64,000 bases of DNA. Origin: Sulfurimonas sediminis (lineage in GTDB: Bacteria > Campylobacterota > Campylobacteria > Campylobacterales > Sulfurimonadaceae). Made by a program: the position numbers and the translations under genes. How positions within the stretch are numbered: the stretch's first letter is position 1; each line of letters starts with the position of its first letter. The notes under the pieces are model-generated. The model was not told where the DNA came from. It worked only from the letters and a program-made list of their open reading frames with translations, and made no database searches. Positions 3,233-60,865 of this stretch are shown in pieces. Where the stretch lies: positions 744,001 through 808,000 of the forward strand of contig NZ_CP041235.1 of assembly GCF_014905115.1 (NCBI RefSeq), given 5' to 3'.

Positions 3233-3277
3233 GCCATTTCTCAGTCGGCACTAAAGTACCGATTCCGATTAAATGGC
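3233..3277. repeat. REP palindrome inside a short outer inverted repeat
   Basis: A minus-orientation REP unit (3244-3266) identical in type to those around the RAYT gene at 47 kb. It is flanked by GCCATTT (3233-3239) and AAATGGC (3271-3277), which can pair and lengthen the hairpin. It lies in the 114-base gap between the gtrA-like gene and the GT-C-like gene and could work as a processing or attenuation hairpin within the operon. Confidence 0.8.
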
Positions 3278-39309: not shown

Positions 39310-39388
39310 TTATAATAGGATTGTTTTTATTATATTAGCCAGAAACAAATTAATTTAAAGTGAAAAATGTTATTTTTCTTTGAAGTAG

Positions 39389-40642
39389 CACCACAATCCT
39401 CTAAAAACTAAATTTTAATATTTGAGCGATAGAGTCATCCAAATCCCATCTATTGTTGATGAGTTGTTCTTGTATAGATTTTGCACCATTAAGGTGTAAA
39501 ATATTCAAAATCATACTTCTAAGAATAGTCATTAAAAATGGATTTAAATGACAATTATGAGCATCTTCTAAAAGTGAATTATCTTTGTATTGATGCATGG
39601 TTTCCACTTTCCAATGGTGTAAAATTTTATTGTGAAAGAATTCTGCACTTTCATGAAAATTTGCAATACAGAATTGAATTCTAGTGCTATTAGTAATCTC
39701 GCCAGTTTTATGATTTGTTGACTCTACTTTTTTTATAACTTTTATTATTAAGCGAATATGAGTTATGCCATTGATGAAAAAGTAGTTGGTTGATATACAA
39801 ACACCTTCCTATTAATCCATTCATTAGATTGTTGGACAGGTTTAGCCTTGTAAATATTTGTCGGTTTTATATCTCTTGAAATTTCATCTATTTTATCAAG
39901 TAAGGTTTTTTGATTATCTTTTACCTTGGCAATATATTTTGAACCACTATTTTCGATAGCATCAAGAGTTTTTTTGGGTATTCATTGCATCAAAAGTAAA
40001 GATAAATTCATCTCCCAATTCCCCTATCATAGCCTGAAGGGCAGGTATTTCATTCGACTTCTCTGCTATTTGTTGATGAGCAATTATTACCCCTATCTCA
40101 GATAAAACAGCACCAACTACTTCTATTGATCTCTTATCTTTGTATTTGCTGCCATTCATAACCTTGCCATCTACGCTCAGGTGCTTTCCTCTTGTATCGA
40201 CATAGGTTCTTATCCATTTCCTAAAAACAACTTCAACTTCTTGGCTATCAACTTTCGCTAACACATCAGAAACCAAACTTTTCTTTGGTGTTAATATAAA
40301 CTCTACACCTAATAATCTTTTAACTTGTTCTTTTTGAATATGCTTCTCTATCCAAATAGATATTTGCTTATAGTCAGTTGCTCCCATCAATCCAGCCAAT
40401 ACTGAAAGATATAAAATATGTTCTAGTCGGTGTCTTTTACCTTGAGGTTTCCGATAGTCTGTCACCTCTGAAAACAATTTTAAAAGTTGATTTGATTGGG
40501 CTTGATCTGCATACCCTCTTATAGAACGCTTTTTCGCTAATTTTTCTCTTGTTTTTGTTGCCATATGTAATCACTTTAGTTTTTTAGAGTTTAAGCAATT
40601 ATTGTTCTTCTTTTAAATTCCTGTTTTTTTAGGATTGGGGTG
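39389..40642 (-). mobile_element. ISAs1-family insertion sequence, copy 1
   Basis: 1254 bp. The ends are inverted repeats, CACCACAATCCT at 39389 and the complement of CACCCCAATCCT at 40642. Flanks are TTGAAGTAG (39380-39388) and TTGAAGTAC (40643-40651), an 8-9-bp target duplication with one mismatch, as expected for ISAs1. The right flank continues as the second half of a REP, so the element landed in or beside a REP. It is one base shorter than copy 2 because of an extra frameshift in the transposase. Confidence 0.9.
39401..40564 (-). pseudogene. ISAs1 transposase, two frameshifts
   Basis: The first 200 codons (40564 to 39962) are identical in protein to copies 2 and 3. They include LSVDGK and FTFDAMNTQK, holding two of the DDE acids. 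The frame then breaks at an A7 tract (T7 on this strand, about 39969-39975), as in the other copies. The rest continues in another frame to a stop at 39401, and a further one-base deletion near 39777 breaks it again, so this copy cannot make a full protein even with one frameshift. Confidence 0.9.
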
Positions 40643-40792
40643 TTGAAGTACGGCTGAAAGTGGTAAAAAAGCTAAAAACAGTCGGCACTAAAGTACCGAT
40701 TCCAAGGAGTCACTACATTTTGGAACCCTTTCTTTAGGGTCAATACCATGTAAGTTACGCAGTTTTTTCGGAACCCATCCTTTAGGGTGGGC
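40643..40792. repeat. REP cluster between ISAs1 copy 1 and glmS
   Basis: Units: a 3' half of a plus-orientation REP cut by the IS (about 40647-40663), a full minus unit (40681-40703), a decayed plus unit (40722-40740, GGAACCC with TTTA-GGGT) and a full plus unit of the CCCATCC-TTTA-GGGTGGG type (40770-40792). All lie downstream of the glmS stop codon. Confidence 0.88.
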
Positions 40793-42643: not shown

Positions 42644-42670
42644 GCAGTACCTTTATTTTGTATTTTTAGA

Positions 42671-42821
42671 GGTGCCCTTCACTGCCATTAAGTTAAGCAT
42701 TTATTTGGAACCGGTACTTTAGTGCCGGCTGAGAGTGGCAAGACTATTGCAACAGCCGGCACTAAAGTACCGGTTCCGAGAAAGCATTAATTTTCTTAAC
42801 TTAATGGCATTGAAGGTACCC
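42671..42821. repeat. 150-bp near-perfect inverted repeat built on a head-to-tail REP pair
   Basis: Between glnD and glmS. Outer arms (from GGTGCCCTTCA at 42671 and up to TGAAGGTACCC at 42821) match over about 26 bases including TGCCATTAAGTTAA. Inside are a plus REP of the CCGGTAC-TTTA-GTGCCGG type (42707-42732) and its mirror image (42753-42777). The repeat ends at the base before the glnD stop codon and covers nearly the whole gap, so a transcript across it would fold into a long stem. Confidence 0.9.
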
Positions 42822-45392: not shown

Positions 45393-45567
45393 GTCGGCAC
45401 TAAAGTACCGATTCCAAGGAGCCAGTATATTTCGGAACCCGTACTTCAGTGCGGGCTGAACACGGCAGAAAAGCCAAACCGTCTATACCCGGAACCCGTA
45501 CTTTCTATGCTAAAGCATGACTTGTGAGAAAAACTAAATTTTTTTCTGTAGTGCGGGCTGAAAGTGG
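45393..45567. repeat. Three REP units, one composite
   Basis: A minus unit (45393-45415), a plus unit with loop TTCA (45434-45460) facing it across an 18-base spacer, and a plus composite unit (45491-45560) in which a 45-base insertion sits in the loop. The REP tail GAAAGTGGC runs on to 45567. The region is the leader of the ABM gene; nothing else is seen in this 273-base gap. Confidence 0.9.
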
Positions 45568-47063: not shown

Positions 47064-47082
47064 TCTAGTTTTTTATATCTCG

Positions 47083-47197
47083 GAACCCATCCTTTAGGGT
47101 GGGCGAGAGTGGCCAAGAAAGTAACAACAGTCGGCACTGCAGAAAAAAATTTAGTTTTTTTCTAAGTCATGCTTTAGCATAGAAAGTACCGATTCCG
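47083..47197. repeat. REP pair upstream of the RAYT gene
   Basis: A plus unit of the CCCATCC-TTTA-GGGTGGG type (47083-47113) and a minus composite unit (47131-47197) with the 44-base loop insertion. A further decayed plus half follows (GCAACTG, from about 47215). These directly precede the RAYT start at 47253. Confidence 0.92.
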
Positions 47198-47252
47198 GGG
47201 TGTCACTTCATTTTGCAACTGAGAAAAAATTTCAAAAAGGCATAAATATAGA

Positions 47253-47762
47253 ATGAACCACACAAAACTGCATCATATCAGCCTTCAAGAGCATTACCAG
47301 TTTGTTACCTTTCGTACAGAGGAGAGTGTTGATGCCTATGTACGAAAACTTCTGGAAAATGATGAAAAAGAGTCTGTCAAGCAGTTTCAGATAGACAATT
47401 ATTTAGACAGTTCAAAAAACGGTGCCTGTTTGTTTGATGAAGCGATTGATGTTTTTATGGATGTTATTTTGGAAGAAGATGAAAAACTTTATGATGTGGA
47501 AATTATGGCAATTATGCCAAATCATATTCATTTATTATTCAAGCAAAATGATGATTTAGGTAAAATTATGCAATACATCAAAGGTAAAAGTGCAGTTGAA
47601 CTCAATAAATTTTTGCAAAAATCAGGAAAATTTTGGGCAGATGGGTATTATGACAAACTCATAAGAGATGAAGAACACTATATAAAAGTTTACAATTACA
47701 TAAAAAACAACCCTCTCAAAGCCGGACTGAAGGATGAAAGAGTTTTTAGCAAATATGAGTAA
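47253..47762 (+). CDS. RAYT: REP-associated tyrosine (HUH, Y1) transposase
   Basis: 169 residues, a single Y1 domain of the IS200/REP transposase family. It shows FVTFRT near the start, QIDNYLDS at about 46-53, the HUH pair H91-I-H93 in IMPNHIHLLF, FWADGYYDKLIRDEEHY and the YIKNNPLKAGL ending, with the catalytic Tyr among Y143, Y147 and Y149. Such proteins nick single-stranded DNA at REP hairpins beside a GTAG-like foot tetranucleotide; in this genome the foot would be GGAA. There are no IS ends; REPs bracket the gene within 60 bases on one side and six on the other, the standard layout of a domesticated RAYT. Confidence 0.93.
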   Translation: MNHTKLHHISLQEHYQFVTFRTEESVDAYVRKLLENDEKESVKQFQIDNYLDSSKNGACLFDEAIDVFMDVILEEDEKLYDVEIMAIMPNHIHLLFKQNDDLGKIMQYIKGKSAVELNKFLQKSGKFWADGYYDKLIRDEEHYIKVYNYIKNNPLKAGLKDERVFSKYE

Positions 47763-47767
47763 CAACA

Positions 47768-47928
47768 GTCGGCACTAAAGTACCGATTCCGGGGAATTGA
47801 TACATTTTGGAACCCGTACTTCAGTGCGGGCTGAGAGTGGCAGAAAAGTAACAACAGTCGGCACTAAAGTACCGATGCCGGGGAGTCTCTATATTTCGGA
47901 ACCCATCCTTTAGGGTGGGCGAGAGTGG
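47768..47928. repeat. Two REP pairs downstream of the RAYT gene
   Basis: Minus 47768-47790, plus 47809-47840, minus 47857-47879 (with GATGCC for GATTCC), plus 47898-47928. Each minus-plus pair has its GGAA feet facing each other over an 18-base spacer, and the two pairs are separated by CAGAAAAGTAACAACA. This is a BIME-like array of two periods. Confidence 0.93.
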
Positions 47929-49527: not shown

Positions 49528-49775
49528 GTCGGCACTACAGAAAAAAATTTAGTTTTTTTCTAAGTTATGCTTTAACATAGAAAGTACCGATTCCGAGGGA
49601 TGTCACTGCATTTCGGAACCCGTACTTTAGTGCGGGCTGAGAGTGGTAGGAGAGTAGCAACAGTCGGCACTGCAGAAAAAAATTTAGTTTTTTTCTAAGT
49701 CATGCTTTAGCATAGAAAGTACCGATTCCGTGGAGTTTTACTATTTGGAACCCATCCTTTAGGGTGGGCTGAGAG
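49528..49775. repeat. REP array of two pairs, both with composite minus units
   Basis: Composite minus 49528-49594, plus 49615-49646, composite minus 49663-49729, plus 49747-49775. The 279-base gap between the kinase gene and mqnE is otherwise empty. The first composite differs from the second at several inner-stem bases, so the copies are not a fresh duplication. Confidence 0.92.
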
Positions 49776-50846: not shown

Positions 50847-50878
50847 GGAACCCATCCTTTAGGGTGGGCTGAGCGTGG
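50847..50878 (+). repeat. Single plus REP between mqnE and the glycosyltransferase gene
   Basis: CCCATCC-TTTA-GGGTGGG type with tail GCTGAGCGTGG. It starts 11 bases after the mqnE stop and ends 14 bases before the next ATG. Confidence 0.9.
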
Positions 50879-53053: not shown

Positions 53054-53121
53054 TCGGCACTGAAGTACCGATTCCGGATGTACAGTTTTTGGAACCCATC
53101 CTTTAGGGTGGGCGAGAGTGG
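53053..53121. repeat. REP pair after the Uma2-family gene
   Basis: Minus unit 53053-53075 (loop TGAA) and plus unit 53091-53121 facing it across a 15-base spacer. Confidence 0.92.
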
Positions 53122-54703: not shown

Positions 54704-54770
54704 GTCGGCACTGCAGAAAAAAATTTAGTTTTTTTCTAAGTCATGCTTTAGCATAGAAAGTACCGATTCT
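54704..54770 (-). repeat. Composite minus REP
   Basis: A REP split by the 44-base nested insertion, ending GATTCT in place of GATTCC. It lies between the Uma2 relic and the comEA-like gene. Confidence 0.9.
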
Positions 54771-55190: not shown

Positions 55191-55213
55191 GTCGGCACTG
55201 AAGTACAGATTCC
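55191..55213 (-). repeat. Decayed minus REP
   Basis: Minus REP with loop TGAA and a C-to-A change in the second arm (GTACAGATTCC). It borders the block of broken insertion sequences. Confidence 0.8.
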
Positions 55214-58915: not shown

Positions 58916-60865
58916 ATGAGATTATCAATTTTTGAAATACGATCAATTTTAAATACATTTCATGAAGTTTTTGGTAGCGGGAAAGTTTATCTTTTCGGTA
59001 GTCGTGTAGATGACACCAAAAAAGGTGGTGATATAGATTTGTATTTTGAAGTAGAAAACCAAGAGAATCTTTTTGATAAAAAAATTGATTTTCTTGTAAA
59101 GCTGCAAAGTAAAATTGGTGAACAAAAAATTGATATAGTGTTTGCTAAAGATAGATTGAGAAGTATTGAAAAAGAGATAGCAGGAAATAAAATGGAACTT
59201 AGCATAGAAAAAATAAGATTAGAAAAATATTTTCATGAATGTGACAAACATATTCAACGCTTAGAAGAGGCTTATGCAGATATAGCAAATAAAATACCTT
59301 TGACAGCTAAGGATTATATAGAGCTAGATAAAGCTAGTGTTCAGGCACTCGATCAATACATCTTTAGATTTTCAAAACTTCAAGATACAATGGGAGATAA
59401 AATATTTAGACTTATTTTTTCACTTTATAACGAAACAAATGAAGCCATCCCTTTTAGGGATTTGTTAAATAAACTAGAAAAACTAGGTTTTTTGTATAGT
59501 GCAAAAGAGTGGATAAATTTACGCAATATTCGAAATGAGATAGCACATCAGTATGATGACGAACTAGAAGAATCAAGTCGTGCAATCAACAATATAGTGA
59601 TGCAAAAAGCCATCATCATAAAAATATATCAAAATATCGTAGATAAATATCATTACAGGACCGGTACTTCAGTGCCGGCTGATGAAGCAAATGAAAGGGA
59701 TAGAAAAACAATGAAAATAGCAATAGCAGGTACAGGGTATGTTGGCTTGTCAAATGGTTTACTTTTAGCACAAAATAACGAAGTCGTAGCACTGGACATC
59801 ATTCCCGAAAAAGTTGCAATGCTACAGAAGAAAATAAGCCCCATAGAAGATAAAGAGATAGAAGAGTACTTAAAAAAAGATGACATAAACTTTAAAGCTA
59901 CTTTAGATAAAAAAGAGGCATATACGGCTGCAAACTTTATCATCATAGCCACACCAACTGACTATGACCCAGATACCAACTATTTTAATACTAAAACTAT
60001 AGAATATGTTGTAAAAGATGTACTGGAAATAAACCCAGATGCAACGATGGTCATAAAATCTACTGTACCGGTTGGCTACACAAAAAGTTTAAGAGAAAAA
60101 TTTAAGACTGACAACATCATCTTTTCTCCAGAATTTCTGAGAGAGGGAAAAGCACTGCATGATAACTTATACCCAAGTAGAATAATAGTAGGAGAAAAAA
60201 GTAAACGCGCAGAGACTTTTGCAAATTTACTAGCCGAGGGTGCTATAAAAGAAAATATTGACATCTTGTTTACTGACTCTACCGAGGCAGAGGCTATAAA
60301 ACTCTTTGCAAATACTTACCTGGCTATGAGAGTGGCATACTTCAATGAACTGGACTCTTATGCACAAACGCACAATCTGGATGCAAGACAGATCATAGAG
60401 GGTGTAGGGCTAGACCCTCGCATAGGAATGCATTACAATAACCCAAGTTTTGGATATGGCGGATACTGTTTACCAAAAGATACCAAACAACTCAGAGCAA
60501 ACTACGAAAATGTTCCATGTAACTTAATAAGTGCCATAGTAGAAGCAAATAGTACTAGAAAAGATTTTATAGCACAAAGCATAATTGACAGGCTCAGAAC
60601 CGGTACTTCAGTGCCGGCAAATAAAATAGTAGGCATCTACAGACTTACTATGAAAAGCGGAAGCGATAACTTTAGAAGCTCAGCCATTCAAGGCATCATG
60701 AAACGTATAAAAGCAAAAGGTGTTGAAGTAGTTATATATGAGCCTGTAATGCAAGAAGAGACTTTTTTTAACTCTAAAGTTATTAAAGATTTAGACGAGT
60801 TTAAACGAGTGAGTGATGTCAAAGAGAAAGTGTATACTCGTGATATTTTTCAAAGTGACAGCTAA
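58916..60865 (+). CDS. Nucleotidyltransferase-HEPN protein fused in frame to UDP-sugar dehydrogenase via REPs
   Basis: 649 codons. Residues 1-100: MNT-type nucleotidyltransferase ([20 protein letters not shown], the GSR...DID core). Residues 105-245: helical HEPN domain with RNEIAH (RX4H) near 212-217. Residues about 249-256 read RTGTSVPA, coded by a REP at 59658-59682. From M266 on: UDP-glucose/GDP-mannose dehydrogenase. MNT and HEPN are normally an antitoxin-toxin pair or a fused protein that ends here; the REP seems to have replaced the stop. Whether the long protein is made or the dehydrogenase starts at its own ATG (59711) is unknown. Confidence 0.75.
59658..59682 (+). repeat. Coding plus REP at the HEPN-dehydrogenase junction
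   Basis: GGACCGGTACTTCAGTGCCG and its GCTGA tail: the CCGGTAC-TTCA-GTGCCGG stem of the REP family with foot GGA(A). It is read as R-T-G-T-S-V-P-A-D with no stop in this frame. Confidence 0.88.
59711..60865 (+). CDS. UDP-glucose/GDP-mannose dehydrogenase family
   Basis: 384 residues if translated from ATG 59711 (AAAGGG is 12 bases upstream). NAD motif [10 protein letters not shown] at the start, then ATPTDY, STVPVG, EFLREG, and the catalytic Cys in [14 protein letters not shown]. It oxidises a nucleotide sugar twice to the uronic acid, for capsule or [11 protein letters not shown] appears a second time within it (60597-60618), in a loop before [18 protein letters not shown] where relatives have no such insertion. 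The whole frame is open from 58916. Confidence 0.88.
60597..60618 (+). repeat. Coding plus REP within the dehydrogenase gene
   Basis: The CCGGTAC-TTCA-GTGCCGG stem with foot GAA; translated RTGTSVPAN in the same frame as the element at 59658. It sits where homologues go directly from the helix ending in ...SIIDRL to KIVGIYRL. Confidence 0.87.

Follow-up and report, generated by a model that had tools for sequence, protein, structure and literature searches.

A gene encoding a 169-residue TnpA-REP-like protein (RAYT) with a Y1/HUH endonuclease fold lies on the + strand at 47253–47762 of the window, the term used here for the whole 64-kb stretch of Sulfurimonas sediminis DNA that was analyzed. 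As expected of a RAYT gene, it is flanked by inverted palindromes that recur genome-wide, each unit (REP) consisting of a GGAA foot, a 7-bp stem, and a 4-nt loop, either TTTA or TTCA. Upstream of the gene, a unit GGAA-CCCATCC-TTTA-GGGTGGG (47082–47103, + strand) is followed by a unit on the − strand, GGAA-TCGGTAC...GTGCCGA, the loop of which is split by a 44-nt module to give a branched hairpin fold (47131–47196). Downstream, a − strand unit GGAA-TCGGTAC-TTTA-GTGCCGA (47769–47790) is located 6 nt past the RAYT stop codon, followed by a 71-bp doublet with REPIN spacing on the + strand (CCCGTAC/TCGGTAC, 47809–47879), whose distal unit (47858–47879, − strand) has a GGCA foot, and by a second GGAA-CCCATCC-TTTA-GGGTGGG unit (47898–47919, + strand). 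The preliminary description of this locus had placed seven units around the gene; the enclosure is borne out, with six units in 47082–47919, and the seventh may correspond to a small TTTA hairpin within the split unit at 47131–47196.

The open reading frame described earlier and its HIH and YIKNNPLKAGL motifs are present as stated: NHIH occupies residues 90–93, YIKNNPLKAGL, which includes Tyr149, lies near the C-terminus, and an FVTFRT motif is found in the N-terminal part. The protein thus displays the RAYT core, with H91/H93 in the HUH motif, a tyrosine (Y149) followed by NP(L/V)(R/K)xG, which includes N153, and a conserved N-terminal threonine, according to the motif set of PMC2817692. Pfam Y1_Tnp matches it with an E value of 2.7e-11, and the NCBIfam model NF047646 (REP_Tyr_transpos) with an E value of 1.3e-19 and a score of 70.6 bits, which is under the equivalog cut-off of 80 bits. 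The AlphaFold2 model (pLDDT 91) has as its top structural match 4er8, a TnpA-REP with its REP hairpin (Foldseek E 2e-7; VIA-align Z 12.9, rmsd 2.8, 127 residues aligned), tied or nearly tied in Z with the TnpA proteins of IS608 and ISDra2 (Z 11.4–12.2 over 102–109 residues; the maxima, 12.2 and 12.0, count as ties under the aligner's criterion). IS200/IS605 TnpA proteins share the Y1 HUH fold and the logic of hairpin and guide, and the fold alone is indecisive. An IS200/IS605 element is disfavored by the RAYT motifs, with Asn (NNP) where IS608 has Gln, by the lack of TnpB among six typed neighbors, and by the occurrence of one copy, typical of a RAYT, in the genome (G000, a single contig, C1, of 2,320,257 bp, of which the window covers 744001–808000). 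Two further Y1-like proteins (L002 and L003; G000:C1:233249-235817), 24–32% identical to the RAYT, are encoded by open frames of 355 and 366 codons, one with an internal TAG; they may be long, REP-less members of subclass 2.1, a group of that character that is prevalent in epsilonproteobacteria (PMC6006769).

Elsewhere in the window, units of the TCGGTAC class are found on the − strand at 40682–40703, 45394–45415, and 53054–53075 (the last with a TTCA loop), together with an isolated one at 3245–3266. The + strand carries CCCATCC-class units at 40770–40791, 49747–49768, 50847–50868, and 53091–53112, and CCCGTAC-class units at 45434–45455 (TTCA loop) and 49615–49636; a degenerate unit lies at 55192–55213 (− strand). 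A symmetric 71-bp REPIN of the CCGGTAC class (42707–42777, + strand), with near-identical copies elsewhere in the genome, forms the center of a palindromic element of ~155 bp to which no strand is assigned (42667–42821). Split REPs are marked by the A/T core of the loop-insert module in the glnD-ABM intergenic region (45527–45545, − strand), and by module cores on the + strand at 49541–49559, 49676–49694, and 54717–54735, the last within a unit with a degenerate foot, AGAA. A covariance model run over the window returned 21 units at E≤1, those at 59658 and 60596 being among the weakest, and five more are split by the module. The resulting total of 26 agrees with the approximately 26 palindromes counted in the preliminary description, as does their concentration, which had been put at 40.6–55.2 kb: 17 of the 21 model units and all five split units fall at 40.6–55.3 kb.

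The 44-nt module leaves the REP stem intact and adds two hairpins within the loop. With up to three mismatches, it has 18 matches in G000, compared to none in the control; among these, it was seen within REP loops for the five window copies and for L184, L194, and L197. The glnD-ABM gap of a related genome, G053, likewise holds a copy of the module in a REP loop, but the stem of that REP differs from the one in G000, as if stems had been replaced in place. At the edge of the array, ~1.27 kb of the window (39378–40651) is missing in G117 and G053. An insertion sequence that decayed or was interrupted probably accounts for this segment beside the REP array, since an open reading frame within it (39962–40564, − strand) matches DDE_Tnp_1_assoc (1.4e-16).

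Across the 2.32-Mb genome, the palindrome pattern has 169 matches, compared to seven for the reversed pattern, and hence is not a product of chance; eight matches judged by eye not to be hairpins were excluded, and the position statistics use the other 161 units. All 26 neighboring +/− pairs less than 150 nt apart have 52–54 nt between hit starts and correspond to 71-bp REPINs, that is, two inverted REPs at fixed spacing, whereas the other neighbors within that distance comprise 30 −/+ pairs with facing feet at 28–134 nt, 10 +/+ pairs, and two −/− pairs. Inspection of 20 stretches around +/− pairs confirmed the doublet and showed the CCGGTAC copies to be nearly identical; symmetric 71-bp REPINs make up approximately one-third of the copies. 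The repeats are short stem-loops at high copy number, as are canonical REPs, with GGAA in place of the canonical GT[AG]G 5' tetranucleotide. A single 22-nt hairpin is not unusually stable (z −0.76); the evidence for REPs is instead their repetition and covariation. Among 21 REPs of the source and related genomes, 99.3% of cells are paired and 61 are changed on both sides, values that none of 500 shuffles reached; the paired percentage is biased because rows were picked for forming hairpins, which leaves stem diversity unaffected. Units on the + strand outnumber those on the − strand in the first megabase (65 versus 43, P 0.04), compared to 25 versus 28 beyond it. A scan of window positions 38–58 kb with Rfam at gathering score gave no match apart from a tRNA, and a known RNA family was rejected as an explanation there.

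The 161 units divide into 110 of the TCGGTAC/CCCGTAC/CCCATCC type and 51 of the CCGGTAC class, and the two groups are distributed differently. Within 10 kb of the RAYT, eight loci of the former type are found versus 0.54 expected, in contrast to one CCGGTAC locus versus 0.31 expected, which represents no enrichment. Most of the 14 CCGGTAC REPINs seen are embedded in a larger palindrome with arms of ~30–40 nt, the outer arms of this ~155-bp element resembling GAGGTGCCCTTCAATGCCATTAAGTTAAG (42667–42821 in the window, and L178–L193). Given their lack of enrichment near the RAYT and their placement in the larger palindrome, the CCGGTAC REPINs may be amplified by another enzyme. An explanation that goes further along this line would make them the core of a MITE-like element moved in trans by a different transposase, with the RAYT serving the TCGGTAC/CCCGTAC/CCCATCC units only. 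The shared outer arms speak for it, as does the window copy (42707–42777), which, together with its arms, is missing from the orthologous position in G117 and in G053 and was thus either gained in this lineage or lost twice. However, foot, loop, and 71-bp spacing do not differ between the core and the RAYT-proximal units, and L180 and L187 lack the right arm. This explanation appears unlikely, albeit the least so of the alternatives considered. At L192 and L193, the ~155-bp element appears to interrupt older REPs.

The RAYT belongs to a well-supported lineage. A midpoint-rooted tree of 51 rows places 37 of them in a single clade (support 100/100), referred to here as the GG-foot clade, the members of which come from Sulfurimonadaceae, Sulfurovaceae, and Arcobacteraceae. 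Gammaproteobacterial rows are nested within it twice (L040, and L041 with L045–L048), which looks like transfer. Across the phylum, a RAYT of this clade occurs in 15 of 397 genomes drawn.

Repeat and RAYT co-occur at two levels of relatedness. The exact repeat family (GGAAYCSGTAYTTYAGTGCSGR) is present in three of 200 family genomes, with 129 copies in G000, 97 in G117, and 225 in G150 (control, 0), and these are precisely the three genomes with RAYTs that are 88–100% identical; the remaining 197, in which the RAYT, where present, has less than 88% identity, contain no copy. For the wider GGAA family, a structure model, R1, has at least five matches in 14 of 23 genomes with a clade RAYT, a set that includes a RAYT fragment, in G012, compared to 16 of 177 without (Fisher odds ratio 15.7, P 5e-8, for genomes that share ancestry, so that tests are not independent). 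The other nine RAYT-positive genomes have fewer than five R1 matches; R1, scored on up to 40 candidates per genome in this comparison and up to 150 in the position counts below, misses some loops and feet, and its counts are lower bounds. GGAA REPs are present in pieces of 11 of the 16 RAYT-negative, repeat-bearing genomes, and of G101; the stem of many is GTGAGGC or GTGGGAC. A profile search for a RAYT had no match at E≤0.001 in nine of these 16 genomes; in the other seven, the Y1 matches obtained were all weak or of a long, paralogue type. The weak Y1-like proteins were rejected as the missing RAYTs after inspection of 10 loci, which showed no flanking REP family and a single chance-like hairpin (L139). 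GGAA repeats therefore need no resident RAYT to persist, as has been described for E. coli REPINs (PMC8049555). The proposition that the repeat would be absent from relatives without the RAYT accordingly stands for the exact family and fails for the sister GGAA families, and a strict RAYT dependence of the wider family is rejected.

Five genomes (G075, G115, G198, G017, and G176), two of them incomplete (G198, 70%; G176, 79%), have at least 19–38 GGAA-model matches each and no clade RAYT that was found by the search, making them candidates for RAYT loss with persisting REPs. In two others, the RAYT gene contains one in-frame stop (L023 in G089, TAA; L014 in G164, TAG), possibly reflecting recent RAYT decay; G089 keeps 14 clustered REPs.

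A second line of evidence is provided by the position of the repeats. Within 10 kb of the RAYT in G000 are 17 of the 161 units (1.4 expected), or nine loci (0.8 expected), a value reached by 0.28% of random centers. The densest 15-kb window anywhere in this genome is the one at the RAYT, and 2000 random placements never exceeded seven; at 30 and 100 kb, random placements gave up to 10 and 15 loci, so that the observed maxima of nine and 14 do not stand out. In G117, 23 units lie within 10 kb of the RAYT versus 27 across the other 180 kb fetched, and in G053 the pattern finds 11 versus six in the rest of the stretch fetched. The loci of G000, G117, and G053 are syntenic and do not count as independent clusters, for which reason G103, G089, G177, and 18 other RAYT loci were added. 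A pattern search of the 80 kb with the RAYT in G103, G089, and G177 found 5, 14, and 6 units, respectively, all of them no farther than 5.4 kb from the gene, and eight distant 20-kb stretches contained none. Among the whole-genome R1 matches listed, 10 of 37 in G053, 12 of 21 in G089, 5 of 8 in G103, and 3 of 3 in G177 fall within 10 kb of the gene, where chance would place well under one per genome; nine of the 21 in G089 and three of the eight in G103 lie elsewhere, so the repeats are not confined to the vicinity of the RAYT. Over the 18 further loci, eight of which have no unit of this shape, density declines with distance from 1.76 to 0.27, 0.11, and 0.04 per kb. Thus, all six genomes examined show a concentration of REPs within 10 kb of the RAYT. 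Such a local preference is not new in itself, since in a Thauera genome more than one-third of REPs are near its rayt gene, for which local production was proposed (PMC2817692).

The gene order around the RAYT bears on how these clusters arose. Across relatives, the RAYT occupies different gaps of one neighborhood: it lies between an aldolase and a kinase gene in G000, G117, G150, and Sulfurovum L038, between a CofH/MqnC-type radical-SAM gene and a glycosyltransferase gene in G053, G089, and G169, after the radical-SAM gene in L050, where the contig ends, and beyond the glycosyltransferase gene in L044. Six neighbor proteins are 86–99% identical between G000 and G117 and 68–94% identical between G000 and G053; with identities of 88% and 71%, respectively, the RAYT does not evolve clearly faster than the kinase or the glycosyltransferase. 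The shifting gaps would fit a cluster that arose as the RAYT gene, with its flanking REPs, moved over short distances, rather than by local copying of REPs. Against such relocation, which is judged improbable, 21 of the 23 clade-positive genomes have one RAYT copy, and the 3.5-kb loci of G103 and G177 contain none of the six neighbor proteins, yet repeats cluster there. Host-kept elements acting at the RNA or structural level (terminators, mRNA stabilizers, or gyrase or protein sites), next to which the RAYT is coincidental or recruited, are a very unlikely explanation: E. coli REPs do have such roles (PMC6006769) and REPs persist here without a clade RAYT, but the exact family accompanies the RAYT, density falls with distance from it, repeat families differ between the syntenic G000 and G053 loci as the RAYT diverges, and the tRNA was the sole Rfam match at 38–58 kb.

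The layout of GGAA foot, 7-bp stem, and 4-nt loop recurs beside most clade RAYTs. GGAA is the foot in most assignable rows of the clade, with GGAT in L023 and L042, a GGAC-like foot in L017, and GGGG in L016 and in the group of L041 and L045–L048. Among more distant loci, GTAG feet occur in some Chloroflexota, Acidobacteriota, Bacteroidota, and others, and GGAG in several Verrucomicrobiota; the assignments leave out L010, L011, L012, L018, L021, L036, L038, L044, and many distant loci. Comparison of feet and protein residues in 48 rows showed that the type of foot follows the identity of residue 142, a position next to the guide-binding region: all 38 GG-foot rows have His there, and all 10 GTAG rows have Glu or Gln. 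This clean split could be flattered, as the 48 rows were chosen from ~100 RAYT loci, with feet assigned partly by eye, and are related to one another, kinship being ignored. At residue 131, all 10 GTAG rows have Glu, as do five of the 38 GG rows; at residue 132, every one of the 38 GG rows has Tyr or Phe, and eight of the 10 GTAG rows have Ser. The rule for residue 132 does not carry over to E. coli 4er8, a GTAG system of another subclass, which has Phe at that position; at the position of residue 142 it has Asp. An alignment through a related protein pairs E. coli W94, Q95, E100, H101, R104, D108, and N119 with W128, A129, D134, K135, R138, H142, and N153, leaving Ala, Lys, and His at the Q95, H101, and D108 positions, and pairs Y149 with the E. 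coli tyrosine Y115. The numbering of guide-contact residues in E. coli TnpA-REP follows PMC6006769 and PMC8266576.

The E. coli YafM-type RAYT (subclass 2.2, 4er8) shares with the present system the Y1/HUH fold, inverted REPs enclosing the gene, and genome-wide REPINs, and differs from it in the foot, GTAG instead of GGAA, and in the stem, which here is a perfect 7 bp with no bulge. Judged by motif, subclass 2.4 would be the closest of the published subclasses, the best fit resting on NHIH, YIxNNP, and a scatter over phyla (Quentin et al. 2018, PMC6006769). As described there, however, that subclass has NH[IFV]H, WQ, YIxNNP, and GT[AG]G REPs, in contrast to W-Ala and GGAA here. The automatic REP search of that study could not pick up GGAA feet because it required GTAG or GTGG; manual inspection was added to it. 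REPs of Haemophilus influenzae (GTAGGGTGGGCTTYAGCCCACC) have the same 4+7+4+7 layout and a like TTTA/TTCA loop, with a GTAG foot (PMC2817692). Sulfurovum sp. NBC37-1 likewise contains palindromic repeats in a campylobacterotal genome encoding tyrosine transposases, with the difference that their feet are GTAG or CGTC and that the CGTC repeats are not adjacent to transposase genes (PMC3733652). REP/RAYT pairs, which the preliminary description had treated as gammaproteobacterial, are not confined to that class, given these GTAG REPs and the RAYT-like genes reported from epsilonproteobacteria, among others (PMC6006769). Published feet, to the extent covered by the accessible parts of PMC6006769, PMC8266576, PMC3733652, PMC2817692, PMC3116915, PMC3686654, and PMC8049555, are GT[AG]G and CGTC, with atypical or CnGA feet in subclass 2.6 and class 3. 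A GGAA foot was not found in the literature searched; supplementary tables and most subscription journals, outside its scope, may record it. The same holds for accounts of TnpAREP in Sulfurimonas or of extragenic palindromes in Campylobacterota, none of which was found in a search with most subscription journals outside its scope. Groups of RAYTs are reportedly treated by Bertels et al. 2017.

The identification as a REP/RAYT system with a GGAA foot and a TTTA/TTCA loop, proposed from the start, is backed by fold and motifs, repeat layout, stem covariation, and exact co-occurrence, to which the foot that differs between sister lineages, the local clustering, and one presence/absence site are added. 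Taken as a whole, a REP/RAYT system of a distinct GG-foot lineage, including the proposed binding, cleavage, and local REPIN spread, is very probably the correct explanation; REP binding, the chemistry of cleavage, and the RAYT as the cause of spreading are what we infer. A simple model would suggest that the RAYT, a single-domain Y1 HUH nuclease, most likely binds the REP as a folded single strand, in which the GGAA foot would serve as the guide beside the 7-bp stem and the TTYA loop. Y149 would form the 5'-phosphotyrosine bond, with the metal held by H91/H93/N153. The enzyme would move or copy REP doublets (REPINs) while the DNA is single-stranded, and their spread would be biased to sites within ~10 kb of the RAYT gene. 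Under the guide model of PMC8266576, replacement of GTAG by GGAA should shift the preferred cleavage dinucleotide from CT to TT (or TC).

A more detailed scenario is put forward tentatively, as somewhat less than an even prospect: a Campylobacterota-centered RAYT lineage, passed to methanotrophic and other gammaproteobacteria, would combine a GG[AG]N guide and accompanying residue changes (Glu/Ser at 131/132 to x/Tyr, and acidic or Gln to His at 142) with a co-evolved cleavage dinucleotide, self-adjacent copying, and branched 44-nt loop modules riding in REPs.

The system is a genuine REP/RAYT system of ordinary logic, with a non-canonical guide common to a whole lineage; beside the strong local clustering, it has two embellishments, the loop-split REPs and the REPINs nested in a larger palindrome. 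In the literature covered, REP recognition was worked out on GTAG systems, those of E. coli, Stenotrophomonas, and Marinomonas (PMC8266576). The natural series of RAYTs with GTAG, GGAG, GGAA, GGAT, and GGGG feet, in which residue 142 splits GTAG from GG in 48 of 48 rows, offers a direct test of how the guide is read and of whether it sets the cleavage site. The spread of REPs is an open question of the field, for which G089 and G103, with 12 of 21 and 5 of 8 listed repeats near the RAYT, form a natural series with their relatives of 97–225 copies. More generally, a domesticated single-stranded DNA transposase with its own hairpins is well suited to testing how enzymes of this kind select their DNA.
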